From the IMG/VR virus record IMGVR_UViG_3300003691_000012, positions 1 through 47,422 of that record: a stretch of DNA of 47,422 nucleotides; one strand, written 5' to 3'. This stretch comes from a virus. A program made the translations under genes and the position numbers. Shown in pieces: positions 1,741 through 20,421 of this stretch (position 1 is its first letter; the number at the start of each line of letters is the position of its first letter). The notes beneath the pieces are model-generated. The model ran no database searches. It had not been told where the DNA came from and saw nothing but the letters and a program-made list of their open reading frames with translations.

Positions 1741-1881
1741 TTATCCTTGTTCAGTTTTATCTAGCTCAGCCAATTCTTGTTTCAGTTCTTTAACTATTTC
1801 CACATTACCTTCATCTTCATGATAGGCAATTGCATTGATTAAAATTTTACGCTCTGTTTCATATTCTGTTGGGTTATTCAT
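1741..1881 (-). CDS. small acidic hypothetical protein (46 aa)
   Basis: A 46-residue frame, rich in Glu and Lys and probably mostly helical (EIVKELKQELAELDKTEQG at the C-terminus). Its ATG overlaps the stop codon of the upstream gene (TAATG arrangement), which indicates translational coupling. No function recognised. Confidence 0.6.
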   Translation of the reverse strand: MNNPTEYETERKILINAIAYHEDEGNVEIVKELKQELAELDKTEQG

Positions 1882-2417
1882 TAGTTATGTCCTAATAATA
1901 AATTCTTAAGTTTAATTTTATTGACTCTATCATCAATACCAAGATGACGTAATTTGAATAAATCAATATCGTGTTGGGGTAAAGATATTTCATCTTCCTC
2001 TTTACCAATGTTGATAAATTTTTCAATAAATGGCAACAATACAGGACTTATTAATGAAGTGACATGTGTAGCATTTTCACAAGATAACATCAGCATACGC
2101 ATATAATGTTTTATATACTCTTGTTCTATTTTATTTGCTTTTTGGTTATCTACAGTTTTATCCATCTCTGCCCAATATTCTCTAGGCAAAGATATAATTG
2201 TAGAATGCTTTATTACTTCCTTTGCATAATAATAATTAGTTCTGTATTTAAACCCAACAGAAGTTACAGGGGTAACTAATTTTTCGTGCATTAAAATTAT
2301 TGCACGTTTAAATTCTTTATTATTATTACCAAATAAAGCAGACAACACAAAATTCACTATTACAGTTTTAGTACCTGGAGCAAATTTACCCCCCATACTT
2401 CTTAGGTAGTTTGCCAT
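1881..2417 (-). CDS. conserved-position hypothetical protein between helicase and polymerase; carries the C-terminal KLKxLL tag
   Basis: This 178-residue protein occupies the slot between helicase and DNA polymerase genes, the place of gp38 in N4; I do not recognise a domain. It is basic in the N-terminal half and contains a Tyr-rich segment (FKYRTNYYYAKEVIKH). The last residues, VNKIKLKNLLLGHN, are the clearest copy of a C-terminal helix that recurs on at least eleven other leftward small proteins in this window. The start overlaps the end of the helicase gene by 32 bases, so the two are probably co-translated. A replication-accessory role is only an inference from position. Confidence 0.75.
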   Translation of the reverse strand: MANYLRSMGGKFAPGTKTVIVNFVLSALFGNNNKEFKRAIILMHEKLVTPVTSVGFKYRTNYYYAKEVIKHSTIISLPREYWAEMDKTVDNQKANKIEQEYIKHYMRMLMLSCENATHVTSLISPVLLPFIEKFINIGKEEDEISLPQHDIDLFKLRHLGIDDRVNKIKLKNLLLGHN

Positions 2418-3789
2418 AAATTATCACCTCATCCGATGGTCTAGTTGTAGCTACATAAAGTAATCTAGCAACTTCCTCTGGATTGTTATTATTACCTATA
2501 TCATCCATATCCACAAAAGACTTTTGGTAAGTAGAACCTTGGCTTTTATGTACAGTTGATGAGTACACTGGACGCAAATCACAGACAGCTTCTTTAACAT
2601 TAAAGAACTCTGTCCAATCTTTATTTTTTCTAGCTTGCTTAGCCAATCTACCTAAGACTTGCTTAACCTGCCGTTGGTCACATGGGATGAATACATTGAT
2701 GTTATGGTTCAGTGTTGCATTCCATCCATCAATATCATAATAATCATTGTTGCTGTGAACATCAATACTAGTTATCTTAGCTATCGAATCTGTCGGCATA
2801 ACCACGCCTTTTTTATTTCCAATTGACCCAGTTGATATTGGGTTATTAGTTATCAATGATTCACCTATAAACGGCTTAGGGTCACTGGTATGTAAAGCAC
2901 GTACATAATCGTTATATGAGTTTACTTTAGCGTTCGTCCATGCAGTAATTTTAGCTTCATTTGGGTCGATAGTTTTGTTACCAAATTGAGTCTTAACTAA
3001 TTGTTGAAACTCTGCACCTGTGACTAATTGTATTTCTTTTCCGTGTGGTTGAACCTTAGGAAAAGCATCCTTAATTATATCATTATATTGTTGTAAATTA
3101 TTGGCACTAATTACAGCACCATTACGAACCAAAGTAGCTTCTTCATCAGCTAATCTTTTTAGTTCTGGTGGAATAGCTTTAATAATATCAATACATTTCC
3201 GGTAGCCTTCACCCAATTCAGGTATGGTAATATTACTACCAAATCTTTGTGCAGTTTTAAGTATTGCCCGATGCTCTACGTTCTGCTCCACTGGGCATAC
3301 AGTTTCAAATATAGGCAATAATTGGTATGGGTCAAGTACATGCAGAACTTTACAATCAGGAGTAGACTCTCTGATTATTTTAAGTAAATGGTTATTCTCC
3401 ATACTAGCTTCATCAATAATGATTAAGCTATTTTTTATTGGAGAAAATGAACCAGTCTTCTGCAATGAGGTAGTCCCATTGTTGTAATTATTAAATACTT
3501 TCAAGCCAAGTAAAGAATGAATAGTGCCTGCTTCCTCACCTGTGGATTGTGACAATACGCTTGCAGCTTTATTTGTTGTAGCAGTGCAATGTATATTGAC
3601 AGTGTTATCATCACCTGTGAGTAGGTTCAGTAGCTTCTTAGCCTTACGGACACTTTTAATCAAGTGTTTGGTTAGGAAAGTTTTTCCGCACCCTGAGTGA
3701 CCTATTAGAGCCATCTCCTTGGTTTGTTTTCCTAGCATGAACTTCATGAACTTGTCTGTAGCATTTTGCTGGTCAGTTGATAATGACAT
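2386..3789 (-). CDS. SF1B DNA helicase, Dda/RecD-like (N4 gp37-like)
   Basis: This is a 467-residue ATP-dependent DNA helicase. It has a Walker A motif GHSGCGKT at residues 30-37, a Q-like N-terminal segment (STDQQNATDKF), motif II IIIDEASM at 123-130, and near residues 410-421 the motif VHKSQGSTY typical of the UvrD/RecD C-terminal domain. This arrangement is that of the Dda/RecD2 group, which unwinds DNA 5'-3' and often works beside the phage polymerase. The ATG at 3789 has a good AAGGAA site. The gene follows a small winged-helix gene with a 12-base gap and its 3' end overlaps the next gene. Confidence 0.93.
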   Translation of the reverse strand: MSLSTDQQNATDKFMKFMLGKQTKEMALIGHSGCGKTFLTKHLIKSVRKAKKLLNLLTGDDNTVNIHCTATTNKAASVLSQSTGEEAGTIHSLLGLKVFNNYNNGTTSLQKTGSFSPIKNSLIIIDEASMENNHLLKIIRESTPDCKVLHVLDPYQLLPIFETVCPVEQNVEHRAILKTAQRFGSNITIPELGEGYRKCIDIIKAIPPELKRLADEEATLVRNGAVISANNLQQYNDIIKDAFPKVQPHGKEIQLVTGAEFQQLVKTQFGNKTIDPNEAKITAWTNAKVNSYNDYVRALHTSDPKPFIGESLITNNPISTGSIGNKKGVVMPTDSIAKITSIDVHSNNDYYDIDGWNATLNHNINVFIPCDQRQVKQVLGRLAKQARKNKDWTEFFNVKEAVCDLRPVYSSTVHKSQGSTYQKSFVDMDDIGNNNNPEEVARLLYVATTRPSDEVIIYGKLPKKYGG

Positions 3790-3801
3790 TTTAATTCCTT
3801 A

Positions 3802-4026
3802 CTAATAATTTGCTGGTAATGCGACTAGAGTGTATCTAGCAAAATAGCTACCTGTTGGTGTATGCATTTCACGGGTTGTTTTAAACAGCCAACCTGCTGC
3901 TTTGAGGTCATAAATTACTGCTGATAGTCTCGTTACCCAGAACTCATTTATTGCTTCTAGTGGCGAGATTGAACGGTTTTGTATTAGGTATTCCTCTACC
4001 ATTTTTCTTTTAGTTTTCTTAGCCAT
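3802..4026 (-). CDS. small winged helix-turn-helix protein (74 aa)
   Basis: The chosen ATG at 4026 follows a strong CAGGAG site and lies one base after the stop of the upstream membrane protein gene; a longer frame from 4077 would run into that gene. The product starts MAKKTKRKMVEEYL and has the pattern of a wHTH domain: a helix, ISPLEAINEFWVTRLSAVIYDLKAAGW, then a two-strand wing with an aromatic end (SYFARYTLV). This kind of small HTH protein is common in phages of this group. A DNA-binding role, perhaps transcriptional or in replication beside the helicase, is inferred from fold only. Confidence 0.75.
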   Translation of the reverse strand: MAKKTKRKMVEEYLIQNRSISPLEAINEFWVTRLSAVIYDLKAAGWLFKTTREMHTPTGSYFARYTLVALPANY

Positions 4027-4027
4027 A

Positions 4028-4294
4028 CTATTTACTCCTGCACTCTGTGCGAATATATTTTGCTTGGGTGATTCCATTTACTTTTTTATCTTGTACATGG
4101 ATACTTGTTGGGCCTGAAACTAGTCCATAGTCTGCACAAGTTATTCTTCCATCTTCAGCGTTTAAAACTAGTAGATGGAATATTATGTAAAGAATGAAGG
4201 CATCCAATAGGAACATACCAAACATGGTACCTTCCCATTTATCCTTTGTTACTTCAAAAGTTTTTATTATTATTAATACGATTATTGTTAACAT
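4028..4294 (-). CDS. small membrane protein (88 aa, two hydrophobic segments)
   Basis: The N-terminus (MLTIIVLIIIKTF) and residues about 25-45 (FGMFLLDAFILYIIFHLLVL) are long hydrophobic runs, so two inner-membrane helices are likely, followed by a soluble C-terminal tail with two cysteines. An AGGAG site precedes the ATG. It starts the small group with the wHTH and helicase genes. No specific function recognised. Confidence 0.65.
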   Translation of the reverse strand: MLTIIVLIIIKTFEVTKDKWEGTMFGMFLLDAFILYIIFHLLVLNAEDGRITCADYGLVSGPTSIHVQDKKVNGITQAKYIRTECRSK

Positions 4295-4564
4295 TCATTT
4301 CTCCTGTTAGGTTAAAATATTTATATGAAGGGGAGCTAGAGAGTTCAACATTAACGCCTCGTTGCCGTAGCTCACAATTAGCAATCAGGTATCAATCAGA
4401 CTCTATTGACCGGTGTATTTTCCGACTTATTCGACCACACAGTCGACCTATTTAATGTTGTTGGTTTTAGCTCCACCACATATAAATACTTAAATTAACC
4501 ATCACTTGATACCTCAAAGCACTCGTAGGAAATGCTAAGTTTTTTTATGGATACCAAGTGAAAG
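4295..4564 (-). other. 270-base gene-free stretch with inverted repeats
   Basis: No convincing reading frame was found. On the minus strand the most obvious structure is an inverted repeat whose arms are at 4549-4560 and 4503-4513 (11 pairs, two of them G-U), with a smaller AGCA/TGCT pairing inside. Two shorter inverted repeats follow: TCGAC/GTCGA near 4432-4447, and GAGCTA (4333-4338) with TAGCTC (4368-4373). The stretch separates the gene at 4565 from that at 4294 and probably contains a transcript end and a new start. Confidence 0.4.
4503..4560 (-). ncRNA. candidate structured RNA / large hairpin
   Basis: Read on the minus strand, CACTTGGTATCC (4560-4549) pairs with GGTATCAAGTG (4513-4503), 11 pairs including two G-U wobbles, closing a loop of about 35 bases that itself contains AGCA/TGCT. 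It lies immediately after the stop of the small membrane protein gene at 4565. There is no U-run after it, so it is not a standard terminator. It could protect the 3' end, be a processing site or be regulatory. Confidence 0.35.
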
Positions 4565-4771
4565 CTAAACCTTATCGTTACGTTGTTCTGCTAAAGCAGC
4601 CCACATAAATACAGCAAAAGAAGTTATATTAACCATACCTAATATCACTACTAATAGAATAGCTTCTTTAACGTCCTTGGCATGGTTTGCCCCAATCAAT
4701 GCAAATGATGTCACCATAGTTATGGAATATATGTAAGCAACTAGTGCTGACAATCCTAATGTTTTAATCAT
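4565..4771 (-). CDS. small membrane protein (68 aa, two TM helices)
   Basis: The ATG at 4771 is preceded by GGAG at optimal distance, so it was preferred over upstream starts that would lie inside the zinc-ribbon gene. The product MIKTLGLSALVAYIYSI... has two hydrophobic helices (about residues 4-25 and 36-58) joined by a short charged loop (NHAKDVKEA), and a polar tail. It overlaps the end of the upstream zinc-ribbon gene by 8 bases. Function unknown. Confidence 0.6.
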   Translation of the reverse strand: MIKTLGLSALVAYIYSITMVTSFALIGANHAKDVKEAILLVVILGMVNITSFAVFMWAALAEQRNDKV

Positions 4772-4904
4772 AGTCTCCATCTCCGTTTTCCACTTCTTCT
4801 CTTTCAAGTGCACAGTCATTACAAACACCATCAGCGTTTATTTCTTCTGGTTTGCATGGATAATCACAATCATCGCATACTGGATTGTCATAGTCATTAC
4901 TCAT
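4764..4904 (-). CDS. zinc-ribbon-like mini-protein (46 aa)
   Basis: The frame encodes MSNDYDNPVCDDCDYPCKPE and continues with a second pair CNDC at residues 28-31. The CxxC...C...CxxC spacing suggests a bound zinc; the rest is very acidic. It overlaps the upstream gene by 8 bases and the downstream membrane protein gene by 8, a compact arrangement that supports translation. Function unknown. Confidence 0.6.
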   Translation of the reverse strand: MSNDYDNPVCDDCDYPCKPEEINADGVCNDCALEREEVENGDGDYD

Positions 4905-5385
4905 TCTTACTCTCCAATACTTTCAATAAACATTCAGCCAGTGCTTGTTGCTTTGTTTCAGTTGACATTCTAGTTCCAATAGTTATATCCCCTAGATAAA
5001 AATCTGGCAGAACAGAACAATGAAACTTTCCTGAGTCCGTTTTTTTCATTTCATAACCGAAGTCAATCAATGGCATTAAGTCATTCCAGTTGTTAAAATC
5101 AAAAGAGTAAGGCGTTTCTTCGTCCTCTTTATATCTGATATAAACTATCCCATCATCCTTTCGCCCTAACAACTGCCGAACCCATCCCAGCTCAGTAATC
5201 AACTTAATATTCAATTCACGGTCTGATAGGTTATTGATGCTCAACCTCTCTTCTGGAAGTGAGCATCCATCACAATAAAGTTTATCCCCTACACGATTTT
5301 CGTTGCCTCTAACTCCTTTTCTATCGCAAAGCTTGCCTTCGCATTTGTCTGGTAATAACTTCCATAGTCTTTTTAATATATTCAT
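4897..5385 (-). CDS. phage ABA-sandwich domain protein with N-terminal Cys cluster (162 aa)
   Basis: The central part, from about residue 60, shows LGW..., then SFDFNNWNDLMPLIDFGYEM, then a hydrophobic strand and a C-terminal helix rich in Ala/Leu. This is the pattern of the small phage 'ABA sandwich' domain (DUF2591-like), found in many phages without known function. The N-terminus adds CEGKLC...CDGC, a probable zinc-binding module. The start overlaps the upstream stop (GGATGA), so translation is coupled. A rough domain identification by pattern, not by profile search. Confidence 0.65.
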   Translation of the reverse strand: MNILKRLWKLLPDKCEGKLCDRKGVRGNENRVGDKLYCDGCSLPEERLSINNLSDRELNIKLITELGWVRQLLGRKDDGIVYIRYKEDEETPYSFDFNNWNDLMPLIDFGYEMKKTDSGKFHCSVLPDFYLGDITIGTRMSTETKQQALAECLLKVLESKNE

Positions 5386-5570
5386 CCTTTCACCTCTTTG
5401 ATTTCCTTTTGGTAGAAGTATTCTGAATCCCTTAGCTCAAGATATTCTTCTTCTGGCAACCACATAGTTCTATAATCTCGGACACTCACTTCAACCTTGC
5501 CGTTGGTGTAGGTAAGCGTATCTTTATACGCGGATTTAAATTTGAATACTTCATTGTCTTTAATTTGCAT
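5382..5570 (-). CDS. small hypothetical protein (62 aa)
   Basis: A 62-residue, Tyr- and Glu-rich protein (LPEEEYLELRDSEYFYQKE). It overlaps the next gene by 4 bases. No domain recognised; the C-terminus KEIKEVKG is only weakly like the recurring tag of other genes here. Confidence 0.55.
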   Translation of the reverse strand: MQIKDNEVFKFKSAYKDTLTYTNGKVEVSVRDYRTMWLPEEEYLELRDSEYFYQKEIKEVKG

Positions 5571-5589
5571 TTTTAGCCTCTTTAATTAA

Positions 5590-5766
5590 TTACTTAATAC
5601 GATTACTATCTATAACCGTAAAGCTTGCCCCTTTACTGTATAAATATAGATTTTCTACTGTGTACTCTAAATTATTAAAATCATCTTTCTCTAAAAATAA
5701 CTTTATAGCTTCCTGAACATCTTCTTTTGATAAAGTCATAGTTGTTTTCCCGTATTTACAGATCAT
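5590..5766 (-). CDS. small hypothetical protein (58 aa)
   Basis: The frame starts with the ATG of an ATGA overlap with the upstream gene and encodes a 58-residue protein with a helix KEDVQEAIKLFLEKDDF followed by two strands. An internal ATG at the tenth codon is an alternative start. Size, coupling and strand fit its neighbours. Function unknown. Confidence 0.55.
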   Translation of the reverse strand: MICKYGKTTMTLSKEDVQEAIKLFLEKDDFNNLEYTVENLYLYSKGASFTVIDSNRIK

Positions 5767-5993
5767 TTTTTACCTCTTCTGTTAAAGCTATTTTTCTGAA
5801 AGTGGATAAAGCTTTTTTCCTTCTTTATAACCTCTAATTCAGGAATACAGTTGTGGTTAATATGTAAAGTCATGGCGGTGTCAGGTAATGCAAAGAAATC
5901 ATCAGTAGATGTACTACCTGAAATAATAACAATGTTATTTTTAATTACTGCTGCCTGTATTATACGACCTACATTTCTGTTACAGATTATCAT
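5763..5993 (-). CDS. small hypothetical protein (76 aa)
   Basis: The product is beta-rich at the start (MIICNRNVGRIIQAAVIKNN, then IVIISGSTS) and very basic at the end (FNRRGKK). It overlaps both neighbours by 4 bases (ATGA), in an apparent translational chain from 6406 down to 5590. No function recognised. Confidence 0.55.
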   Translation of the reverse strand: MIICNRNVGRIIQAAVIKNNIVIISGSTSTDDFFALPDTAMTLHINHNCIPELEVIKKEKSFIHFQKNSFNRRGKK

Positions 5994-10071: not shown

Positions 10072-10088
10072 AACCGCTGGAAGCGGTT
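10072..10088 (-). promoter_or_regulatory. 7-bp hairpin with GGA loop (N4-type promoter hairpin or terminator)
   Basis: AACCGCT, GGA, AGCGGTT form a perfect 7-bp stem with a 3-base loop on the + strand, overlapping the RNA polymerase stop codon. The bases before it read TCAAAA, which resembles the CAAAA plus GGA-loop layout of N4 virion RNA polymerase promoters on the template strand (from memory of the N4 promoter). On the minus strand it is followed by TTTTG, so it might equally be a weak terminator. Confidence 0.4.
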
Positions 10089-10274
10089 AAGCTAATGGAT
10101 ACTCTGCTAGTTTAATCAAGTTACCTAAACTGTCAGAAAGTTTTCTATAAGTAACGTGATGATTATCACTAATTTCTTGTAAGATTGTTTCTAATAAATT
10201 TAGTTCAGCAATTGATGCAAGAATATCACGATAGTTTTCTCGAACATTCTGCATATAGTTTGGTGATGCCCAGA
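10087..10274 (-). CDS. RNA polymerase large subunit, exon 2 (N4 gp16-like, C-terminus)
   Basis: This exon completes the polymerase gene interrupted at 11255. After splicing the frame continues from the split Phe codon of HDSF to WASPNYMQNVRENYRDILA and ends LIKLAEYPLA, with stop at 10087-10089. It carries the C-terminal helix region that follows motif C in single-subunit RNA polymerases. Exon 1 (799 nt) plus this exon (188 nt) give 987 nt, exactly 328 codons and a stop. Without splicing the protein would end 7 residues after HDSF (next stop TAG) and lose this part. Confidence 0.85.
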
Positions 10275-11254
10275 CAGGGCGTTAATCAGCTCGTTACACT
10301 GACCTTACTTCCCGTGATTTGTATGAAAACTATATTTTATATTAGCCCTCTCACGAGATAACTTTGCTTCTTCTAATGTATCAAATAGCCCTAAGTGGAT
10401 TTGTTTCTTATCCACCATGATATAAGCACGGTATTTGTTAGTAGGCTGATGGACAGCTACACCTAGTACCCCAGTTGTATTATTAGAACTAATTGATTCA
10501 TTTTGGTGGTTAATCTTATTAGTAACTTCTCTAAGATTTACCCACCTATTATCATTACGAATATGATTGATGTGGTCTACTTGTTCAGGTAAATACCCAA
10601 GCATATACAGGAAGCATAACCTGTGGGCTAGATAATCTACACTACCTACCCGTACAGTTAAGTAACCTGCGCTATGCAAAGCAGCAGCAGCATCATTTGA
10701 TACACCACTTCTAGTAGTAAACCTATGAGTCCATGCGCCAGTAGTTTTGTCGTATTTAAACCACTTACGTAGCGCTTCCTGTGTTACTTCAGTTATATCT
10801 ATAATTCCTGTTTTGCATGAATTGCACAAACAACCTATTTTAGACTTCCTAGAAGAATACAGGTCTTTAGTGGTGTACATAGCTTTACAACTAGTACATT
10901 CACATTCAGCACCCATTTTACCTATTCGTTTAATAATATTTAGCATTGTATTTCTCAATTGTGTATTTGGTTTTGATTATACCCTAACTGAGAATGTAAG
11001 TCTCCAATTTTCACTGGAGTATCGGACTATATCTTCATCCCTCATTACTGAGTAGGATGCAAGGCACTTCGGCTCCCACTTGGGTAGCCTATGGATTTCA
11101 TTGACCGTTCTGGTCTGTATATCCTAGTCTCTGAACCTTCAAAGGGATTCCTCCCTAAGCTTGGCTGCTGATTGGCATACTCTTTCGAGGTTAGCTTCCC
11201 AGACAGTTCACCTTGTCTTGACCACATATTACTATGCGGCATCGCTCTGTATGA
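10275..11254 (-). mobile_element. group I intron (980 nt) with HNH homing endonuclease gene
   Basis: The intron splits codon 267 of the polymerase large subunit. The sequence shows: the 5' exon ends in U (...GATTCGT); an internal guide CAGAGCGA at 11249-11242 whose GCGA half pairs with exon UCGU, with the conserved U-G wobble at the splice site (P1), and whose CAGA half pairs with the first bases UCUG of the 3' exon (P10); a P7-type core signature GAAGATATAGTCC at 11036-11024; a P9-like CTCCA/TGGAG stem just after it; and a terminal G before the 3' exon. The endonuclease gene lies after the core, in the P9 region. Excision restores an uninterrupted frame. Confidence 0.88.
10305..10946 (-). 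CDS. intron-encoded HNH homing endonuclease with AP2-like C-terminus
   Basis: The protein (213 aa from the ATG at 10946; a TTG 12 bases upstream is an alternative) starts with a zinc-binding-like cluster (CECTSCK...CLCNSCK), then the HNH core VDHINHIRNDNRWVNLR near residue 130-146, and a C-terminal segment GVHQ...YRAYIMVDKKQIHLGLFDTLEEAK of the AP2 DNA-binding type. This arrangement is typical of phage HNH_3 homing enzymes, which cut intron-less alleles to spread their intron. It sits wholly within the group I intron of the RNA polymerase gene. Confidence 0.9.
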   Translation of the reverse strand: MLNIIKRIGKMGAECECTSCKAMYTTKDLYSSRKSKIGCLCNSCKTGIIDITEVTQEALRKWFKYDKTTGAWTHRFTTRSGVSNDAAAALHSAGYLTVRVGSVDYLAHRLCFLYMLGYLPEQVDHINHIRNDNRWVNLREVTNKINHQNESISSNNTTGVLGVAVHQPTNKYRAYIMVDKKQIHLGLFDTLEEAKLSRERANIKYSFHTNHGK

Positions 11255-12053
11255 ACGAATCATGAATTGTTAATAATTCAAACTTCTGTTCAGTTGCTAA
11301 TCTGTACATCTCCCTAACTATATAACCATCAATTGATTGTACAATATTAGCAGGTAATGATAAGTCAAAATCGGTTGATTGATTAATGTATGCACGATGT
11401 GTAAATGTGGCATGATTCAATTCATCAACTTCAATTTTCTTATCAACTGGGGTCATCACTTTAACTCTAGCAGTATGTTGGTCAGGTAATGTCCAAACAT
11501 ATTCTAATGCCGTGGAATCTTGATAGCTTTGAATACTGGTTAGTACGTCCATTGCACCTGGGAATAACTCCCACATTGTGTCATAGAATGTTTCCAACTC
11601 AATTGTACCATCACCAAATAATTGTTTGGGTTGTGCCCTTGAATTATACATAGTAGTCATCACCGGCTTCTTTACTTCCTTAGTTGTGTACTGAGTACCA
11701 CATTTATTAAAGATTACTTCTGCAACTTTTCTGTATGCATTTTCCCGTCTACCTGTGTTAATTAAATTAACATTTCCAGCAGTGGTATGGCACCCACTTA
11801 AGCAAGCCATAATTTGTAATCCAGAACTAGTAGCATCCATGCTTGTTAAGAACCCAGTAGCAACTCCTGCTTCTGCGTCTAACAGTGCATTATAAGCTTT
11901 TGTTGCAAGAATAGGTTCTTTGGCTTTTTGTGTAATAAAAGTATCTCTGTTTGTGTCAACCCATTTGACACGGTCCTCAAAGTTTAATTCACCCTGCCCA
12001 AACTGCTCAGCTAAATCAATTTTAATGTATTCATATGCTGAATATTTATTCAT
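11255..12053 (-). CDS. RNA polymerase large subunit, exon 1 (N4 gp16-like, T7-type)
   Basis: This exon encodes the catalytic part of a T7-family RNA polymerase: motif A TSMDATSSGLQ with catalytic D73, motif B KEVKKPVMTTMYNSR around residues 126-139 with conserved Lys and Tyr, and motif C TIHDSF with catalytic D265. The intron is inserted one base into the Phe codon after HDS. The start (GELNFEDRVKW region) corresponds to about residue 460 of T7 RNA polymerase, directly after the point where the small subunit ends, so the two genes together make one polymerase, as N4 gp15/gp16 (RNAPII) do for middle transcription. The coupling of start 12053 to the upstream stop at 12054 is immediate. Confidence 0.92.
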
Positions 12054-12278
12054 TTAATTATCTCCCAATAATAGATTTTTTAAGTTTCGTTTACGTTCTA
12101 AAGACTTAACCCAGTGCACCACCCAAGCAGATGCTTCTCGTTTATTCATATCGTAGTGTTCAACTAGATAACCCGAGCCGCACATATTTGATTTACCTGA
12201 ATCCCTTACCATAGCCATGAAGTTAAATATTTCTTCCTCCTTGGCTATGTGTTTATTTAGTGGATTAGGTAATGGCAT
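12054..12278 (-). CDS. small helical protein with C-terminal KLKxLL tag, between polymerase subunit genes
   Basis: The ATG at 12278 was chosen because it overlaps the end of the upstream gene by 14 bases and starts a coherent 74-aa protein (MPLPNPLNKHIAKEEEIFNF). It is mostly helical (MNKREASAWVVHWVKSLERK) and ends RNLKNLLLGDN, one of the recurring C-terminal tags. It stops one base before the start of the large polymerase subunit. Position suggests a factor working with the polymerase, but that is inference. Confidence 0.65.
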   Translation of the reverse strand: MPLPNPLNKHIAKEEEIFNFMAMVRDSGKSNMCGSGYLVEHYDMNKREASAWVVHWVKSLERKRNLKNLLLGDN

Positions 12279-12600
12279 CGTCAATAACCACGAGAGCTGG
12301 ATTTGTACCAGTAAATGCGTATCCTCCACTATGACCAGGGTCAAACCCCTGCCACTCTTTTGGTTCTTCAGATACTCCCTTAAGTGAGCCAGTGACTAAT
12401 AACAACTTTAATCTATGTGGTTTCATTAACTCAGTTACTCTTGCAAGTACTTTACGTTTTTGACAGCCACGATGGATATGGTAGGTATTACAAATAGAAG
12501 AAGCCATGCGTTTTTCAGCATTTTCACTCAACTCATGTCCTCCGTAATGTTGAATCCATTTATACCTAAATGCCCTGTTTAATTTTTTATTACTAATCAT
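12265..12600 (-). CDS. hypothetical basic protein between polymerase subunit genes (111 aa)
   Basis: The product is basic in its first half (MISNKKLNRAFRYKWIQHYGG, with His and Cys scattered: CNTYHIHRGCQKRK), then HRLKLLLVTGSLKG and a Gly-rich stretch (GFDPGHSGGYAFTG). Start ATGA overlaps the upstream stop; stop overlaps the next start. I recognise no domain. It belongs to the three-gene insert separating the two polymerase subunits. Confidence 0.6.
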   Translation of the reverse strand: MISNKKLNRAFRYKWIQHYGGHELSENAEKRMASSICNTYHIHRGCQKRKVLARVTELMKPHRLKLLLVTGSLKGVSEEPKEWQGFDPGHSGGYAFTGTNPALVVIDDAIT

Positions 12601-12839
12601 ACATCCTCCGTTAATAGATTTTTAAGTTGGTCTTTCTTTCCCCACTCGTGCTCAGCATCTGGTACAAATGTTAATGACGTTTGTTGATTACTGTCATAAC
12701 TAATCTGGTCATTATCTCTACCAGATACAGTACTTACTTGGTTAAATATCTCTAGTTTTATTAGCCAACCACCATGTACTCTTAACCTAAATGTTTTATA
12801 TTCTTCATCCACTGCTTCCCATTTTTGAACTCTAAGCAT
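12597..12839 (-). CDS. small beta-rich protein with C-terminal KLKxLL-type tag (80 aa)
   Basis: The ATG at 12839, 2 bases after the small polymerase subunit stop, has a GGGGG/GTAGG site and is preferred to starts inside that gene. The product begins MLRVQKWEAVDEEYKTFRLR, shows several beta strands, and ends GKKDQLKNLLTEDV, a member of the recurring C-terminal tag set. Function unknown; probably co-translated with the polymerase subunits. Confidence 0.6.
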   Translation of the reverse strand: MLRVQKWEAVDEEYKTFRLRVHGGWLIKLEIFNQVSTVSGRDNDQISYDSNQQTSLTFVPDAEHEWGKKDQLKNLLTEDV

Positions 12840-12840
12840 C

Positions 12841-13764
12841 CTACACCCCCTCAATAATCTGAGGAGTTGCTAGATTAATCAAACTTTTCTTGTAGCTAGT
12901 TGATTGGATATTTACATGAAAGCCTTGCGAATAAATTCTCCCACGTTTGTCAAATTTCCAAGTGAGATAGAACTCATTACCTGCTGCAATTAATTCATCA
13001 TATACAGTGTTAGAAGTAGTCACTAAACGTAAATGGTTTTGTGCCTTCTCTGCTATTTGTCTAGGTGAATCATCAGCACTAGGTGCCTTGGCTTCTTCCT
13101 CTAACTTTAGCATCCTAAGGTCTAATGAAAGTTTAACTGAAGCAGCTTGATTGATTGCAGCTAAGTTTAATTTATCATCATGGTGATTACCTTTTCCCAA
13201 AATAACAGAGTCATTTTTGGTTAGGTAACCTCCACTACTATTTGTCCAAACTTTTTCAGGTGCACAAATCATAGGTGGTAAATATTTCATCTTATCTAAT
13301 CGTGCAATTGCTTTATTTTCTAGTGCATAATTACTACGAATCATTATTGAACCTGATTCACTATCAGCAGCAGAGATAACATCATATAAACCAGTGTGAC
13401 CAACTACAGCTATTACTTCAGCTGCTGTCTTCACTCCAGAGAATATATCTTCGTATCCCATTTCTTCTGCCAGTTTTCCAACTACTGATTGAATAGATAC
13501 TGGAGTTTGTAATGGTAAAGTTATTAATAAAATTTCCATTACTAGTTCTATATTATCTAATTCAGTGTTATCTAAATAATAACCAATACGATTATTCTTA
13601 CTCGCATAACTGTAATTAGTTGTGAAATACGTATCCAGTTTGTGTAATGCTTCACTCAATAAAAGTGGCAGTGCTTCTTTCATGTCACGTAGAATAATTG
13701 CTCTGCGGTCATGTCTGCTATATTTATCTTCAATTGTTATTTGTGCTAGTCGTTTTAAATTCAT
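12841..13764 (-). CDS. RNA polymerase small subunit, N4 gp15-like (RNAPII)
   Basis: The 307-residue product is the N-terminal half of a split T7-type RNA polymerase. Its C-terminus, TWKFDKRGRIYSQGF followed by SYKKSLINLATPQII, matches the 'DxRGRxY ... LLxLA' region at about residues 420-460 of T7 RNA polymerase; the rest of the enzyme is encoded downstream as the large subunit. In N4 this heterodimer transcribes middle genes. AGGAG lies before the ATG at 13764. In contrast to a simple adjacent pair, three small genes separate the subunits here. Confidence 0.88.
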   Translation of the reverse strand: MNLKRLAQITIEDKYSRHDRRAIILRDMKEALPLLLSEALHKLDTYFTTNYSYASKNNRIGYYLDNTELDNIELVMEILLITLPLQTPVSIQSVVGKLAEEMGYEDIFSGVKTAAEVIAVVGHTGLYDVISAADSESGSIMIRSNYALENKAIARLDKMKYLPPMICAPEKVWTNSSGGYLTKNDSVILGKGNHHDDKLNLAAINQAASVKLSLDLRMLKLEEEAKAPSADDSPRQIAEKAQNHLRLVTTSNTVYDELIAAGNEFYLTWKFDKRGRIYSQGFHVNIQSTSYKKSLINLATPQIIEGV

Positions 13765-13785: not shown

Positions 13786-14088
13786 TTATTTATTTATTGC
13801 CCAAATGGTTTGTTGCCCTTTTAATAAATCATTTAACTTGTGTTTTTTTATCTTATCAACTACTTCACATAATAATGAAAAATCTATATATACTTCTTCC
13901 GATAGTGTTACTCTATTGTCTACTGGATTGAAAACGACTCCTTCGTACTCTTCTGCATCATTTAATCTTAAACTTAAGTCAGGGAGTTCCCAATCAGCGT
14001 TGTAAAATTGACAACCTTTACATTTTTTAATACTTCCAGTAATTTTTTGTATTTCACAATTATGACAACCCTCATGAAATATTTTCAT
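13786..14088 (-). CDS. Cys-rich small protein with KLxxLL tag near its end (100 aa)
   Basis: The N-terminus has four to five cysteines in a zinc-knuckle-like arrangement (CHNC...CKGC). The C-terminal part has helix VYIDFSLLCEVVDKI followed by KKHKLNDLLKG, the recurring tag, but here it is extended by QQTIWAINK. It lies 22 bases upstream of the small RNA polymerase subunit. Function unknown. Confidence 0.65.
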   Translation of the reverse strand: MKIFHEGCHNCEIQKITGSIKKCKGCQFYNADWELPDLSLRLNDAEEYEGVVFNPVDNRVTLSEEVYIDFSLLCEVVDKIKKHKLNDLLKGQQTIWAINK

Positions 14089-15206: not shown

Positions 15207-15428
15207 TTATTCTCCTTTTAGTAATTGTACTAGTTTAATTTTTTTGGCTTTATTGCCTAAATCGATTAGTTCATCTAGGGTTAGATGAATCTCAGATATT
15301 GAGGCACCCCTATCACATAATTCAATAAAACTAGCAGTCAAGTGTAGAGAAAATATACCATTTTTTGATAAACTACTGTGGCCTATATCATCATCATTAA
15401 ATTCATCAATGTCTAGTGTAGTGCTCAT
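15207..15428 (-). CDS. KLKxLL-tag protein (73 aa)
   Basis: The C-terminal part reads ISEIHLTLDELIDLGNK, then AKKIKLVQLLKGE, fitting the extended pattern of the tag family (a Leu-Ser/Thr turn, a helix with Glu-Ile/Leu, then K-x-K-L-x-x-L-L). The N-terminal half is acidic (DIDEFNDDDIG) with a two-strand segment FSLHLTASF resembling the same region of the proteins at 17760 and 18002. Four-base overlap with the upstream gene. Function unknown. Confidence 0.65.
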   Translation of the reverse strand: MSTTLDIDEFNDDDIGHSSLSKNGIFSLHLTASFIELCDRGASISEIHLTLDELIDLGNKAKKIKLVQLLKGE

Positions 15429-16315: not shown

Positions 16316-16405
16316 TATATTATTTCTCCTAGTTATTCAGGAACTGACTGTTAGTGTCCTGTGTCACTACATACTTGTATTTCTAAGTAAAAGTAGGATT
16401 GGAAA

Positions 16406-16420: not shown

Positions 16421-16446
16421 CCTATATTATCTAAGTAGAAAAATAT

Positions 16447-16473
16447 GTACCCAAGAGCTAAGCTCAAGGGTAC
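16447..16473 (-). terminator. terminator of the gene at 16489
   Basis: On the minus strand GTACCC and GGGTAC enclose a second stem GAGCT/AGCTC, separated by a symmetric 2x2 mismatch and a one-base loop, and are followed by ATATTTTTC. The whole 27-base sequence is an almost perfect palindrome beginning 16 bases after the stop codon. Confidence 0.75.
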
Positions 16474-16488
16474 GGTGGTTACAGATTT

Positions 16489-16788
16489 TTAGAATACTAA
16501 ATCAGCTTTGTCATCATTCGCGCCAACGATATTGATAGTACCAGTGATTGTGAATTCTATTGGCTCTGCACCCGGATTTGCTTCCTGATGCGCTTTCTCA
16601 GCATTAATCATGCTACGAGCTACCAAACCTTTAAGCGACATAGGAACGTCACGAGATACCTGTACTGCTTTAGGCTCTGGATTTTCTTTTGTTGCTTTAG
16701 GCATAACTTTGATTTTCAACCATGCGTCAGCTGGTGATAAATCTTTTAAGTTATTAGAACGTGGTTGAGCTGCTTGGTTATTGTGCAT
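16489..16788 (-). CDS. hypothetical early protein with acidic tail (99 aa)
   Basis: The gene stands alone between its own promoter-like hairpin (16832-16850) and its own terminator (16447-16473), suggesting high, independent expression. The product starts with a Gln/Asn-rich tail (MHNNQAAQPRSNN), is rich in Ala/Lys/Pro in the middle, has strand EFTITGTINIVGAN and ends NDDKADLVF. An acidic C-terminus ending in Phe recalls the tails of single-stranded DNA-binding proteins, but the rest is not recognised, so that is only a hint. Clean start with a TTTTCC-rich upstream and AAGGAAA site. Confidence 0.65.
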   Translation of the reverse strand: MHNNQAAQPRSNNLKDLSPADAWLKIKVMPKATKENPEPKAVQVSRDVPMSLKGLVARSMINAEKAHQEANPGAEPIEFTITGTINIVGANDDKADLVF

Positions 16789-16831
16789 AATATTTTCCTT
16801 TTGAAAATTGTTTAGGTTATTTGGCTTTTTG

Positions 16832-16850
16832 CCTTACAAGGCGGTACGCC
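16832..16850 (-). promoter_or_regulatory. GTA-loop hairpin, putative virion-RNA-polymerase promoter
   Basis: GGCG, GTA, CGCC (16840-16850) forms a perfect 4-bp stem on the template strand. CCT at 16832-16834 ends exactly 11 bases before the loop centre, as at four other sites. Next, GGC-TTTTT-GCC (16823-16833) could fold at the transcript's 5' end. It lies 44 bases upstream of the gene at 16788. The remainder of the 230-base gap holds nothing else clear except the hairpin at 16980. Confidence 0.6.
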
Positions 16851-16979
16851 AACACACCCACAGCGGAGCGTAAAATTGATGGAATTAAACGGATATTACA
16901 GGATTATTTGTGTGAACTTAGGGTTTTTTGTCTTATAGTGTGATTATAGTAAGAATTGTTATATCTGAGAACCCTTAGA

Positions 16980-16994
16980 CCCTCGGTGTGAGGG
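16980..16994 (-). terminator. possible terminator hairpin
   Basis: CCCTC and GAGGG form a 5-bp stem with a 5-base loop, 25 bases after the stop of the gene at 17019. On the minus strand it is followed by TCTAAGGG rather than a U-run, so it is a weak candidate. Confidence 0.3.
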
Positions 16995-17018
16995 ACTACT
17001 AAAACTACCTAAAAAGTA

Positions 17019-17195
17019 CTATTTTTTATCCTTATTTTGGTCGTATAAAAGACCACCAATAAACACATAAATTAGTACCAGTGAATTACCTATTGAACTA
17101 CTAATGAAATAGCCTCCGGCTATTATAAATAGAAGCAAAATAATTAAGAGAATACCCTCATAATTACGGTACCATTTTACTACTGGATTAATCAT
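17019..17195 (-). CDS. small membrane protein (58 aa)
   Basis: The ATG at 17195 follows GAGAGGAAA and was preferred to a longer frame that overlaps the upstream gene. The product MINPVVKWYRNYEGILLIIL contains two hydrophobic helices (about residues 14-30 and 34-50) and a charged end DQNKDKK. Function unknown. Confidence 0.6.
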   Translation of the reverse strand: MINPVVKWYRNYEGILLIILLLFIIAGGYFISSSIGNSLVLIYVFIGGLLYDQNKDKK

Positions 17196-17196
17196 A

Positions 17197-17430
17197 TTAT
17201 TTCCTCTCACAATCAATAACTGCACGATGGTCAATCTTACTGCCATCAGTTGTAATGAGTAAACCATAGGCATCCACACCAATCACTGTAATTGGCTCAT
17301 CGATAAGCATACAAGTTTTACCTATATATCCTGTATTTAGTTTATCTTTCACTGGAGTAATTATAGTAATAACTATAATTACTGTGGCCATAACTAAGAG
17401 TATTACTGCATATTCTATTAATTTATTCAT
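17197..17430 (-). CDS. small protein with membrane anchor (77 aa)
   Basis: Residues 5-26 (IEYAVILLVMATVIIVITII) form a hydrophobic helix; the rest (from DKLNTGYIGK) is a short beta-rich soluble domain with CMLIDEPITVIGVDAYGLLI, reminiscent of small SH3-like barrels such as NfeD-type tails. Its start lies within the end of the upstream 33-aa gene. Function unknown. Confidence 0.6.
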   Translation of the reverse strand: MNKLIEYAVILLVMATVIIVITIITPVKDKLNTGYIGKTCMLIDEPITVIGVDAYGLLITTDGSKIDHRAVIDCERK

Positions 17431-17524
17431 CTTGCTTTTCTCCTTTATCTAAATAGTTCCAGAGTACTAATACTCCACCTGATGCAATTAGCATCGCTAA
17501 AATGTAAGCTGTTTCTAAACTCAT
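17423..17524 (-). CDS. very small membrane protein (33 aa)
   Basis: The frame, MSLETAYILAMLIASGGVLV then LWNYLDKGEKQDE, is a single transmembrane helix with a charged tail. Start is coupled to the upstream gene (ATGA) and stop overlaps the next start by 8 bases; a GGAG site precedes it. The tight coupling supports it in spite of its size. Confidence 0.5.
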   Translation of the reverse strand: MSLETAYILAMLIASGGVLVLWNYLDKGEKQDE

Positions 17525-17763
17525 ACTCTTTCTCCTGTTAGTAGTGTTTTTAAATTAAGTTTTTTAGTTGCATTAACATCAACTGAGTAATGTGTCATTG
17601 TTCTCTCAGCCTCAGCTATAGCATCATTCAAGCTTAGTGCCTTGAAGTCACCGATATACCTGTAGGCATGCCCAGTATGGGCATGCATGACTACCTGAAA
17701 TGATGGGATATCATCAAGTAGTTTCTCCATAGCATCCATAACCTGCGAGTCTATTGATTTCAT
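17521..17763 (-). CDS. KLKxLL-tag protein (80 aa)
   Basis: The N-terminal part includes an amphipathic helix (DAMEKLLDDI) and FQVVMHAHTGHAYRY; the end reads VNATKKLNLKTLLTGERV, a clear member of the C-terminal tag family although with a two-residue extension. It overlaps both neighbours by 4 bases. Function unknown. Confidence 0.65.
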   Translation of the reverse strand: MKSIDSQVMDAMEKLLDDIPSFQVVMHAHTGHAYRYIGDFKALSLNDAIAEAERTMTHYSVDVNATKKLNLKTLLTGERV

Positions 17764-18005
17764 ATATCCTCCATGAGCAATGCTCTCAGCTTACGTTGTT
17801 TATAATGTGCCATGATTTTCTTTAAGTCTGTTATATATAAAATAGATGTAAACATCTGTAATGGTGCTTTTTCTTTGATACATCTTTCTATATAAGGAAT
17901 AGAAATATGAATCTTTCTGCCTGCAATTTGTATAACGTAAACACTATCTTGCTCAGTTACACTAATCCTATCAATACGAGAGTCTATTGGAACAATGTTA
18001 GTCAT
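17760..18005 (-). CDS. KLKxLL-tag protein (81 aa), paralogue of the next gene
   Basis: The product has beta strands (SVYVIQIAGRKIHISIPYIE) then a helix and the end HYKQRKLRALLMEDI. The segment I-x-I-P-Y-I/L and the final ALL/QLLMExx are shared with the protein at 18002, so these two look like paralogues (tandem duplication). Four-base overlaps on both sides. Confidence 0.65.
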   Translation of the reverse strand: MTNIVPIDSRIDRISVTEQDSVYVIQIAGRKIHISIPYIERCIKEKAPLQMFTSILYITDLKKIMAHYKQRKLRALLMEDI

Positions 18006-18277
18006 ACACCCTCCATTAGTAATTGTTTAAGCTTAACCCGTTTAATATCATCCAATATCATAATTATCTCTTTATTTGTTAACAAAAATGATTGAACAAC
18101 ATCAACTATATCTAATCCATTATCCGCATACTTTTGTAAGTATGGGACAGTAAGTCTAATCGATTCTTGGTAAGCAATGGTGAACTGAATTTTATTTGTT
18201 AGATGTATATAATCAACAAATAATATACCCGGCGATTTGAAAGTATAGCCGGGTAAGGTAACCGGAGGATTCATCAC
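18002..18277 (-). CDS. KLKxLL-tag protein (91 aa), paralogue of the previous gene
   Basis: The central part IQFTIAYQESIRLTVPYLQK resembles the neighbour at 17760, followed by a long helix and ILDDIKRVKLKQLLMEGV, one of the best copies of the tag. It overlaps the SLOG-family gene upstream by 4 bases. Function unknown. Confidence 0.68.
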   Translation of the reverse strand: MMNPPVTLPGYTFKSPGILFVDYIHLTNKIQFTIAYQESIRLTVPYLQKYADNGLDIVDVVQSFLLTNKEIIMILDDIKRVKLKQLLMEGV

Positions 18278-18711
18278 TTAAATAATGATGGCTGATGACT
18301 AGACAGTTTACCCTCATAATCAAAGATATAAACGGGTTTACCTAGTTTCTTCATATAAGTAATCATATCTGAAGTACCTTTGGACTTACCATCCCAGAAT
18401 GCTACCAGACCCTCAGCGTGGTCACCCATTGCATGATTACGCTTCATACCAGCTAATGCATTGTATTCACCATAACTATTGCTCTTGGTTACACAGGGAG
18501 CTGTCATATCCTTCCAATCAGCTTTAAAGCAATTCTCAGGTAATGCACCATATAAATCATATGCAGTCATGTCAGCACCCTTAGCCATGCCACAGACTAA
18601 CTGGCAGTCCTCACTGATGATATTACTATCAGTAAGTCCTGCAATAGCCTTAGACATGACCTGTGCATCGGTGAAGTCTCTTCCACCTGCAACTATTAAT
18701 AAATTAATCAT
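18274..18711 (-). CDS. SLOG-superfamily (YspA/cpYpsA-related) nucleotide-binding protein
   Basis: The 145-residue product starts with MINLLIVAGGRDFTDAQ, the diagnostic GGRDF turn of DUF2493/SLOG Rossmann-like domains, followed by VCGMAKGADMTAYD (second conserved G-x-A-x-G-AD motif) and FWDGKSKGTSDMI. Members bind nucleotides or nucleotide-derived ligands; phage copies are common and their role is not known, although SLOG domains also act as sensors in anti-phage systems. It sits in the early-gene chain, coupled to the tag genes downstream. Confidence 0.88.
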   Translation of the reverse strand: MINLLIVAGGRDFTDAQVMSKAIAGLTDSNIISEDCQLVCGMAKGADMTAYDLYGALPENCFKADWKDMTAPCVTKSNSYGEYNALAGMKRNHAMGDHAEGLVAFWDGKSKGTSDMITYMKKLGKPVYIFDYEGKLSSHQPSLFK

Positions 18712-18833
18712 CGCATAGCCCTCAGCTTGGTATGAGCTTTGTTTATCTCAATTGCTAACTCATGAGCTACTTCAATGATGCCATCGCGCAAAGCCTTATC
18801 AAATATATAAAAGTACTGTCGTGAAAATGTCAT
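18708..18833 (-). CDS. very small helical protein (41 aa), tag-like C-terminus
   Basis: The ATG at 18833 follows TTGGAG; a longer frame upstream overlaps another gene and was not used. The protein MTFSRQYFYIFDKALRDGII then VAHELAIEINKAHTKLRAMR resembles the last helix of the tag family (I-x-K-x-x-x-KL-R-x-M) without LL. It overlaps the SLOG gene start by 4 bases. Confidence 0.5.
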   Translation of the reverse strand: MTFSRQYFYIFDKALRDGIIEVAHELAIEINKAHTKLRAMR

Positions 18834-18849
18834 AATATTCTCCAATTGA

Positions 18850-19008
18850 TTAAGATGTATAGATAACCCTTTTACGGTTCCTATCCTTGATTTTCTTCCT
18901 ACCATTGTTACGGTGCTTACTAATCTCCACCTGCTGTGGGTAAGCAATATAAATATCTAGGCTTGCACCTAGAAAGAACAATGTAATAAATATATCTCTC
19001 ATGACCAT
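18850..19008 (-). CDS. small protein with N-terminal hydrophobic helix and basic tail (52 aa)
   Basis: A strong GAGGAG site precedes the ATG at 19008. The product MVMRDIFITLFFLGASLDIY has a hydrophobic stretch followed by a strongly basic tail (KHRNNGRKKIKDRNRKR). It overlaps the previous gene's end by 10 bases. Function unknown. Confidence 0.5.
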   Translation of the reverse strand: MVMRDIFITLFFLGASLDIYIAYPQQVEISKHRNNGRKKIKDRNRKRVIYTS

Positions 19009-19121
19009 GGGTTTCTCCTCGGTTTACTATTAATCCTTAACAATGACATTGGTAGTGCTATTGAAACAACACACACAAATATCAATTGCTGTGGCCCTAA
19101 ATTTACTAATACTTCTAACAT
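18999..19121 (-). CDS. very small membrane protein (40 aa)
   Basis: The frame MLEVLVNLGPQQLIFVCVVS then IALPMSLLRI is one hydrophobic helix with a basic end (NSKPRRNPWS), after a GGAG site. It is the first gene after the hairpin at 19152-19170. Confidence 0.5.
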   Translation of the reverse strand: MLEVLVNLGPQQLIFVCVVSIALPMSLLRINSKPRRNPWS

Positions 19122-19151
19122 AATATTCTCCATTTATTTAATTATTATAAT

Positions 19152-19170
19152 CCTTTCAACTCGGTACGAG
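19152..19170 (-). promoter_or_regulatory. GTA-loop hairpin, putative virion-RNA-polymerase promoter
   Basis: CTCG, GTA, CGAG (19160-19170) is identical in stem and loop to the site at 14444. CCT at 19152-19154 ends 11 bases before the loop centre, the shared spacing. It lies 31 bases upstream of the gene at 19121, between it and the stop at 19177. Confidence 0.6.
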
Positions 19171-19176
19171 CCAGCA

Positions 19177-19452
19177 CTAGTTCAGTAGTATTTGCTTAAG
19201 TTTTATCTTGGCTACTGAGGACTTAATGAACTCAATGTCCTCATCACTAAATACTATGTCAGCATTAGCATGGTCAAGCCCCAGAGGAGTGTTCATATCC
19301 CCCAAATTACGGGTAACAGTTTGTACTCCATAGACACTATTAACTCTGGCAGTAATGTAACTACATTCAATATGTTGGGGTAATTTCGATACTAGTAACT
19401 GAATACTTCTTATTGCCTTACAGTGATAATCACGCTTAGGTAATACGTGCAT
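19177..19452 (-). CDS. KLKxLL-tag protein (91 aa)
   Basis: The product ends IVFSDEDIEFIKSSVAKIKL then KQILLN, matching the extended tag pattern (Ser-Asp-Glu-Asp-Ile turn and helix, then K-I-K-L-K-x-x-L-L). The N-terminal part is a mixed alpha/beta segment with Cys (YHCKAIRSIQLLVSKL) that is not recognisable. GAGGAG lies before the ATG at 19452. Confidence 0.68.
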   Translation of the reverse strand: MHVLPKRDYHCKAIRSIQLLVSKLPQHIECSYITARVNSVYGVQTVTRNLGDMNTPLGLDHANADIVFSDEDIEFIKSSVAKIKLKQILLN

Positions 19453-19486
19453 GGTTCATCTCCTCATAGTAGTCAGGTAATAGCAC

Positions 19487-19499
19487 CGCACGGAGTGCG
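19487..19499 (-). promoter_or_regulatory. 5-bp hairpin with GGA loop upstream of the gene at 19452
   Basis: CGCAC, GGA, GTGCG is a perfect 5-bp stem with the N4-type GGA loop and closing C-G pair, 35 bases upstream of the gene start at 19452, on the template strand. It lacks the A-run and the CCT that accompany other sites, so its role as promoter is less certain. Confidence 0.45.
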
Positions 19500-19523
19500 T
19501 ACGAAAAAAAGAACATTGCTCAG

Positions 19524-19649
19524 TTAAGAGCAACACTCCAATTCAAATAACTTACGTAAAGTATCCGGACTTACATCGTGCCAATGTCCACTCTTACGTA
19601 GCCTGCACTCTAATACTGACATCTTAAACATTACTTTAATAAATTTCAT
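19524..19649 (-). CDS. very small basic protein (41 aa)
   Basis: GGAGTGTGTT precedes the ATG at 19649. The protein MKFIKVMFKMSVLECRLRKS then GHWHDVSPDTLRKLFELECCS has a basic first half and His/Cys residues (C15, H22, H24, C39, C40). It begins 31 bases after the GTA hairpin at 19680-19699. Function unknown. Confidence 0.45.
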   Translation of the reverse strand: MKFIKVMFKMSVLECRLRKSGHWHDVSPDTLRKLFELECCS

Positions 19650-19679
19650 AACACACTCCTAGTTAATTAATATAATAAT

Positions 19680-19699
19680 CCTTACCACGTGGTACACGT
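19680..19699 (-). promoter_or_regulatory. GTA-loop hairpin, putative virion-RNA-polymerase promoter
   Basis: ACGTG, GTA, CACGT (19687-19699) is a perfect 5-bp stem, the strongest of the set. CCT at 19680-19682 ends 11 bases before the loop centre. It lies directly after the stop of the gene at 19701 and 31 bases before the start at 19649. Confidence 0.62.
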
Positions 19700-19700
19700 A

Positions 19701-19955
19701 CTAACTCTCCAGCAATAATTTAAGCTTGTGTTTGTTAACAACCTTCACTATTGCTTGCACAAGCTCATCACTTAAACCTTTCTTCCTAGTAAGTGAATAA
19801 TTAGATTTAGTCAGTTCATCTATATCAAAGTAGGAAGATAATAAAGCGGTACTTCCTTTATCCCCATGGATGTATATTTTTTTAGGTGCCTCATAATAGT
19901 TAATAAACTCAACTTTATTGGTTACTAGTAATTTAGGACATATAACTAATTTCAT
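19701..19955 (-). CDS. KLKxLL-tag protein (84 aa)
   Basis: N-terminal beta strands (KLVICPKLLVTNKVEFINYY), then KGLSDELVQAIVKVVNKHKL and KLLLES at the very end. This is the standard tag with its preceding helix. It overlaps the upstream gene by 4 bases, forming a three-gene chain of tag proteins (20421 to 19701) with the same 77-84 aa size. Function unknown. Confidence 0.68.
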   Translation of the reverse strand: MKLVICPKLLVTNKVEFINYYEAPKKIYIHGDKGSTALLSSYFDIDELTKSNYSLTRKKGLSDELVQAIVKVVNKHKLKLLLES

Positions 19956-20185
19956 AATCTTCCCTCCAGTAGTAATGATAGTTTCTCTTTCTTGATAGCA
20001 CCTACAGCACGTACTACTTCAGCCTCAGTGAGTGGAGAGTTATTACTAGTCAGTCCATCAAGAGTACCCCGGTAATATGCTCCAATGGTGGTAGTACTAA
20101 CTAGTAACTCATCGCGCATAATACTATAAGTAATACGTTTCACACTTGGATTCTTACAGTGTGAATCATTTAATTCAATTATCAT
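19952..20185 (-). CDS. KLKxLL-tag protein (77 aa)
   Basis: The C-terminal part SPLTEAEVVRAVGAIKKEKL then SLLLEGRL is perhaps the most complete copy of the tag module (Leu-Thr turn, Glu-Val-Val helix, I-K-K-x-K-L-x-x-L-L-x-G). The N-terminal part has short strands and a DSHCKN segment. Overlaps both neighbours by 4 bases. Confidence 0.68.
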   Translation of the reverse strand: MIIELNDSHCKNPSVKRITYSIMRDELLVSTTTIGAYYRGTLDGLTSNNSPLTEAEVVRAVGAIKKEKLSLLLEGRL

Positions 20186-20421
20186 TTACCCTCCAGTAAT
20201 CTCTTAAGTTTTTGTTTGTTAATACCATCCACTATCGTGACCACATCACCTTTACTTAGTGTACGAGAGTGATGATTAATATGATTGAGGTTAGTAGTTA
20301 CACTCTTGCCCTTACTATCATTAATGATTAATACATTCTCATTTATTGGATAGTAAATGACCATGTTAATACCACTATCCTCATATTTATAAGGACTAAG
20401 TCTTATACTTTTATGTTTCAT
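20182..20421 (-). CDS. KLKxLL-tag protein (79 aa)
   Basis: First gene of the three-gene tag chain. N-terminus is basic and Tyr-rich (MKHKSIRLSPYKYED), followed by strands (NMVIYYPINENVLIINDSKG), then RTLSKGDVVTIVDGINKQKL and KRLLEGK. It aligns by pattern with the next gene over the last 25 residues. Function unknown. Confidence 0.68.
   Translation of the reverse strand: MKHKSIRLSPYKYEDSGINMVIYYPINENVLIINDSKGKSVTTNLNHINHHSRTLSKGDVVTIVDGINKQKLKRLLEGK

Follow-up and report, generated by a model that had tools for sequence, protein, structure and literature searches.

A C-terminal tag shared by twelve small leftward proteins of an N4-like phage, and its lineage dialects among Schitoviridae

The stretch of DNA analysed here, 47,422 nucleotides of the virus record IMGVR_UViG_3300003691_000012 (the window), belongs to an N4-like phage (Schitoviridae) and carries genes for RNAP1, a split RNAP2, an AAA protein and a VWA protein. 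It has almost no nucleotide similarity to known phages, scans of viral contigs with single sequences found no close relatives, and no window protein scored above the curated cut-offs of Pfam. Open reading frames (ORFs) were called mechanically. The leftward genes between 1.9 and 20.4 kb form the early/middle side of the window, and twelve of the small proteins encoded there are closed by the motif x-K-x-K-L-K-x-L-L-x-G, called the tag below. A previous inspection of the letters alone, the sequence-only reading, had named the genes at 1881, 12054, 12597, 13786, 15207, 17521, 17760, 18002, 19177, 19701, 19952 and 20182, and the motif was recovered in every one of them.

All twelve genes lie on the minus strand. 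The gene at 1881..2417 encodes a protein of 178 residues with a tail ending in DDRVNKIKLKNLLLGHN; residues 17-143 match phrog_4881, the tail lies beyond the match, and tblastn with this protein gave no match. Two genes are located between those for RNAP1 and RNAP2. The first (12054..12344, probable start near 12278; tail ERKRNLKNLLLGDN) has a body orthologous to L009:10975 and L007:8927, each with its own lineage's tail, and an untagged homologue of this body, gp31 of Synechococcus phage S-CBWM1, ends exactly where the tag would start. The body of the second (12597..12854, tail GKKDQLKNLLTEDV) is orthologous to L009:11174 and L010:9472; tblastn with the L009 orthologue gave no match. The protein encoded at 13786..14088 matches phrog_29620 at residues 4-42, which leaves its tail uncovered, and here a further nine residues come after the tag KIKKHKLNDLLKG, which is thus not exactly terminal as the sequence-only reading had it. 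The remaining tails are NKAKKIKLVQLLKGE (15207..15428), TKKLNLKTLLTGERV (17521..17763), HYKQRKLRALLMEDI (17760..18005), DIKRVKLKQLLMEGV (18002..18277), KSSVAKIKLKQILLN (19177..19452), VKVVNKHKLKLLLES (19701..19955), AIKKEKLSLLLEGRL (19952..20185, an ungapped paralogue of 20182) and DGINKQKLKRLLEGK (20182..20421). The AlphaFold model of the 20182 protein was of low confidence (predicted local distance difference test, pLDDT, 60), for which it was left out of the fold search; it shows three strands and then a long C-terminal helix, residues 57-77, that contains the tag. The genes at 5990 and 18708, previously counted as weaker members, were dropped, since their ends KQLIKEVKLK and TKLRAMR lack the LxxLL core.

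The tagged array also encloses an untagged SLOG-family (YAcAr) protein (18274-18711, minus strand), which scored below the Pfam curated cut-off. RNAP1 (N4 gp15-like), the small component of the phage's RNA polymerase II, is encoded untagged at 12841..13764 (minus strand), and its best match is in Alteromonas phage PT15-A5 (37%). The gene for the N4 gp16-like RNAP2, likewise untagged, spans 10087-12053 (minus strand) and is split, with the N-terminal part at 11232..12053, the C-terminal part at 10087-10254 and an HNH_3 homing endonuclease frame at 10305-10958 between the pieces. On the plus strand, the terminase large subunit frame (24830-27526) contains an in-frame Hint and LAGLIDADG insertion at residues about 189-460, an intein.

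The frequency of the tag was compared with several controls. A strict regular expression applied to the last 16 residues matched 11 of 335 stop-to-stop ORFs on the minus strand, nine of which are listed genes, and 2 of 284 on the plus strand, none of which is listed. When the last 15 residues of the window proteins were compared by end-anchored BLOSUM scoring, 22 high-scoring pairs were obtained, against none for the preceding 15 residues and one for the N-termini. Random internal 15-mers gave a mean of 1.16 and a maximum of 4 pairs (100 sets). Shuffled tails, which the sequence-only reading had proposed as a control, did not match as often as the real ones (mean 1.17, maximum 5 pairs in 300 trials). 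The occurrence of the C-terminal tag on twelve small leftward proteins is confirmed.

At identical tail residues the codons agreed in 154 cases, where 144.5 were expected from codon usage. Since the synonymous codons vary as much as the background, the tail is kept at the protein level and is not recently copied DNA. It is barely credible that the motif is a by-product of ribosome-binding sites or of DNA copied at gene ends. Several tagged genes do share a 4-base overlap with the next start, and their last E/G codons lie partly within the Shine-Dalgarno sequence. However, the KLKxLL core lies upstream of the Shine-Dalgarno site, and untagged genes with an equal 4-base overlap have no motif. 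Together with the codon variation, this refutes a ribosome-binding-site artefact or recent DNA copying as the main cause.

We then considered whether the bodies in front of the tag are related. Body-only phmmer runs among the tagged proteins found no pair in the window or in the tagged contig L005. Comparison of 12 groups of body profiles without tails gave probabilities of at most 1.7%, whereas three pairs climbed to 49-62% when the tails were added; these profiles were shallow, with 2-9 sequences each. The 71 tagged proteins fall into at least 15 PHROG families, and PADLOC returned weak single hits only for the 71. Six orthologous body families are common to the Vibrio phages and pYD6-A, and all six keep the tag. 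Within the window, the proteins 19952 and 20182 give an ungapped alignment of 74 residues that takes in the tail (E about 2e-4 at full length), and a z of 4.8 was obtained for the bodies of 18002 and 20182, so that some of the 15.2-20.4 kb proteins probably form a single diverged family. The claim that the proteins otherwise differ is therefore mostly upheld, with these two pairs as exceptions, while the paralogy assigned to 17760 and 18002 is weak once the tail is removed (z 1.9).

The tag is not confined to the window. In a screen of 71 contigs around RNAP1, many of them loci of only 8-10 kb, significant C-terminal sharing was found in L023, L037, L058, L054, L004, L003, L005 and L007; further comparisons showed it in the Pseudomonas fluorescens phages phCDa and 98PfluR60PP, and in L081 and L087 the C-terminal similarity was likewise above the controls. 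Sharing was at chance level in N4, LUZ7, roseophage DSS3P2, VCO139, PT15-A5, phiA41, T4, T7 and SPO1. Tag-like scores were reached by 4-6% of the small genes in untagged Schitoviridae and by 0 of 108 genes of T4, T7 and SPO1. Pontosvirinae, Fuhrmanvirinae (pYD6-A), Shizishanvirus, Littlefixvirus and several uncultured Schitoviridae have 5 to about 20 tagged small proteins each. The tagged lineages cluster on a tree of RNAP1, which needs 7 changes where shuffled labels need 13.8. The deepest split, under an arbitrary root, sets all of them apart from N4 and the roseophage. With no detectable body homology, several Schitoviridae lineages bearing the tag and codons that were not copied, the proposal of one end on many different bodies is supported, and over a much wider range of phages than the window could show. 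We found no description of the tag in an open-access library.

Different ends were noticed on some small proteins of the compared phages. Salmonella phage vB_SalP_TR2 (L089, 6379-10533) encodes about seven CxxC proteins of 55-69 residues with another tail, Y-x-x-Q/L-[IL]-[IL], which form a parallel zinc-ribbon-like array around RNAP1. In Vibrio phage pVco-5 (L082, 737-12000) more than 40 tiny ORFs lie ahead of RNAP1, some of them sharing an RYETN-like end, and in L046 (11814-13043) the end LSxYDxKLADIIYGxL is common to two small proteins. A gene for a ClpP-like protease (PF00574, E 2e-13) is found at positions 1-561 of L058, at the edge of a Vibrio-type contig rich in tagged proteins.

One Pseudomonas-type clade differs from the window. 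In L037, 12 body-only pairs were detected and in L023 two, which shows paralogous bodies. Whole-domain homology, which the sequence-only reading held would speak against a shared tail, was not detected in the window or L005, was present in L037 and partly so in L010, L081 and L023. The L037 family alignment spans the whole protein, and its model (pLDDT 86) is compact, the C-terminal helix being the best defined part with a pLDDT of about 96. A fold search with this model found no match in the PDB; the best viral matches were small uncharacterised proteins of the Pseudomonas phages 98PfluR60PP and ZC08. A hidden Markov model (HMM) search detected family members in many genomes of the same clade, often between RNAP1 and RNAP2, and comparison of the L037 family profile with the window set gave nothing. 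LUZ7 gp21 and PEV2 gp20/gp22 resemble the family by eye, yet they failed the HMM search. Since the L037 kin are paralogous and the bodies of other lineages are unrelated, two situations coexist, a true gene family here and, elsewhere, a single tail borne by unrelated bodies. Spread of a family by duplication, also suggested earlier, is partly correct, as it fits L037 and its kin, where the helix lies within the predicted fold.

These data bear on the view that all tagged proteins derive from one ancient, fast-diverging family of small strand-plus-helix proteins, of which the helix, forming the core of the fold, is the last recognisable part. The full-length homology and compact model in L037, the paralogy in L023, the related pairs in the window and the recurrence of strand-then-helix layouts are what this view would predict. 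However, at least eight body groups show no profile similarity and belong to different PHROGs, the homologue of the 12054 body ends untagged, the 1881 protein has a long body from another family, and one tagged family resembles a zinc ribbon (Lar-like). The L037 helix also appears hydrophobic on all faces, beyond what one packing face would need. We regard the single family as unlikely.

The tagged lineages have in common the helix pattern h-[KR]-[LM]-x-x-[LM]-L, each in its own dialect. In register, the motifs are xKxKLKxLLxG in the window, hKMxxLLED in the Vibrio phages, PxEFKTxLLLLG in L023, PxEFRMALLLLG in L037 and PDVVKLAxML in phCDa; pYD6-A and two Vibrio phages have C-termini of another flavour (IKMQELMA, LKLLELLES, YKMEILLND). 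In a leave-one-out assignment of tails to lineages, 61 of 108 were correct, whereas permuted labels gave a mean of 10.3 and a maximum of 24. The mean tail charge in the window was +2.4 for tagged and +0.7 for untagged proteins, and in the Vibrio phages -2.5 and 0.0, respectively. By these assignments and charges, the copies within a lineage tend to be of one flavour. Such dialects would be expected from a single co-evolving partner and, to some degree, from shared ancestry of the copies.

The tail charges bear on several other explanations. An amphipathic helix that targets the membrane, as the C-terminus of MinD does, is highly improbable: the window tails are basic and amphipathic, and the RNA polymerase II of N4 is tightly membrane-associated (PMC4496689), yet the Vibrio tails are acidic with the same helix pattern. 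A universal membrane anchor of the MinD type was rejected on this ground, its basic face holding in the window and failing in the Vibrio tails. If the helices bound each other, as self-association elements that lead to homo- or hetero-oligomers, lineage-wide dialects and all-hydrophobic helices such as EFRMSLLLLG would also result; with tails mostly basic in the window and mostly acidic in the Vibrio phages, packing of like with like is disfavoured, and we consider this quite unlikely. Docking to a host protein (e.g. a protease or adaptor, RNA polymerase or the ribosome), with the bodies delivering host targets to one host machine, would suit the early/middle expression and variable bodies of a host-takeover adaptor set. 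It is distinctly improbable, as dialect and charge flip between lineages although the core host machines are well conserved. The sliding-clamp binding motif was also rejected, its consensus QL[SD]LF occurring in none of the listed tails.

The explanation we favour, with a probability of about 0.5, is that the tag is an amphipathic LxxLL-type docking helix for a shared, co-evolving and probably phage-encoded partner, with RNAP1/RNAP2 as the leading candidate. In the registered tails, leucine-like residues occupy positions 0, +3 and +4 of an amphipathic helix, with a basic residue at -1 and often a further hydrophobic one at -3, and the helix is predicted in the models of L037 and, at low confidence, of 20182. 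The short helix would act as a docking plug that brings each protein to one partner, while the variable bodies would do different jobs. Because the copies in each lineage share one dialect, tail charge included, the partner is most likely phage-encoded, and many plugs following one changing socket would account for the dialects. The docking role, the phage-encoded partner and the polymerase as that partner are what we infer from the sequences. The two-part RNAP1/RNAP2 enzyme is put forward from gene position, since the interval between the genes for its two subunits is enriched in tagged genes: 46 of 75 small genes are tagged inside the interval and 82 of 302 outside (odds ratio 4.3, p 6e-8, a value that is too small because tandem duplicates are not independent). 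The tagged proteins may then be accessory or regulatory factors; the RNA polymerase II of N4, a minimal enzyme, cannot do without protein cofactors, and gp2 binds it directly and so recruits it (PMC4496689).

Several points weigh against this explanation. Tagged genes also occur close to the genes for the VWA protein and DNA polymerase, so position fails to single out RNA polymerase; the AAA and VWA proteins are alternative candidates, since the VWA gene in L004 and L003 is flanked by tagged genes. In L037 and its kin, the helix belongs to a single compact fold, of which it is the part predicted best, and it could be conserved because folding needs it. The dialects could arise if the copies of each lineage descend from few ancestors. 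LUZ7 and PEV2 have RNAP1/RNAP2 yet one to three weak copies, and N4 has none. A wider version of the docking helix, a plug-and-socket system throughout many Schitoviridae in which a phage would have as many as about 20 small proteins, unrelated to one another, that share a single socket on its own RNAP1/RNAP2 and drift jointly with it into dialects, is put more tentatively and seems doubtful to us.

Known systems offer partial parallels. Eukaryotic LxxLL motifs, the nuclear-receptor boxes, are established docking helices of coactivators. Like the tag, they are short amphipathic helices with leucines at i, i+3 and i+4 and basic flanks, by which many unrelated proteins bind one receptor; unlike it, they are eukaryotic, usually internal and often repeated, and with no homology to the tag they compare in manner of working only. 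Poxvirus ankyrin/F-box families combine variable bodies with a constant C-terminal docking module. There too many viral proteins with differing bodies have one constant end, but the F-box is a known domain for a known host complex, whereas the tag is a 12-residue helix with a candidate partner. The small tryptophan-rich protein between RNAP1 and RNAP2 of Pseudomonas-type Schitoviridae (the L037 family) has the end VPxE[LF][KR]xxxLL, with the same helix pattern at the same locus; in contrast to the window set, its members have homologous bodies and the helix lies within one predicted fold. N4 gp2 is, like the tagged proteins, a small early phage protein, and recruits RNAP1/RNAP2 by direct binding (PMC4496689), but it is one single-stranded DNA-binding protein of a phage without the shared tag, whereas the tagged proteins are many and diverse. 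No relation between tagged and N4 proteins was found in pooled phmmer runs that included N4 (L065), no dedicated gp2 profile being used.

The function of most small early phage genes is not known, and with a recognisable shared end, dozens of them in each genome would be grouped into a single network. The tail peptide would serve as a single bait for finding the partner, and the cultured P. fluorescens phages phCDa and 98PfluR60PP, together with pYD6-A, make this reading of the tag testable. Should the phage RNA polymerase prove to be the partner, the tag would account for the regulation of a minimal T7-like enzyme in a large phage family.

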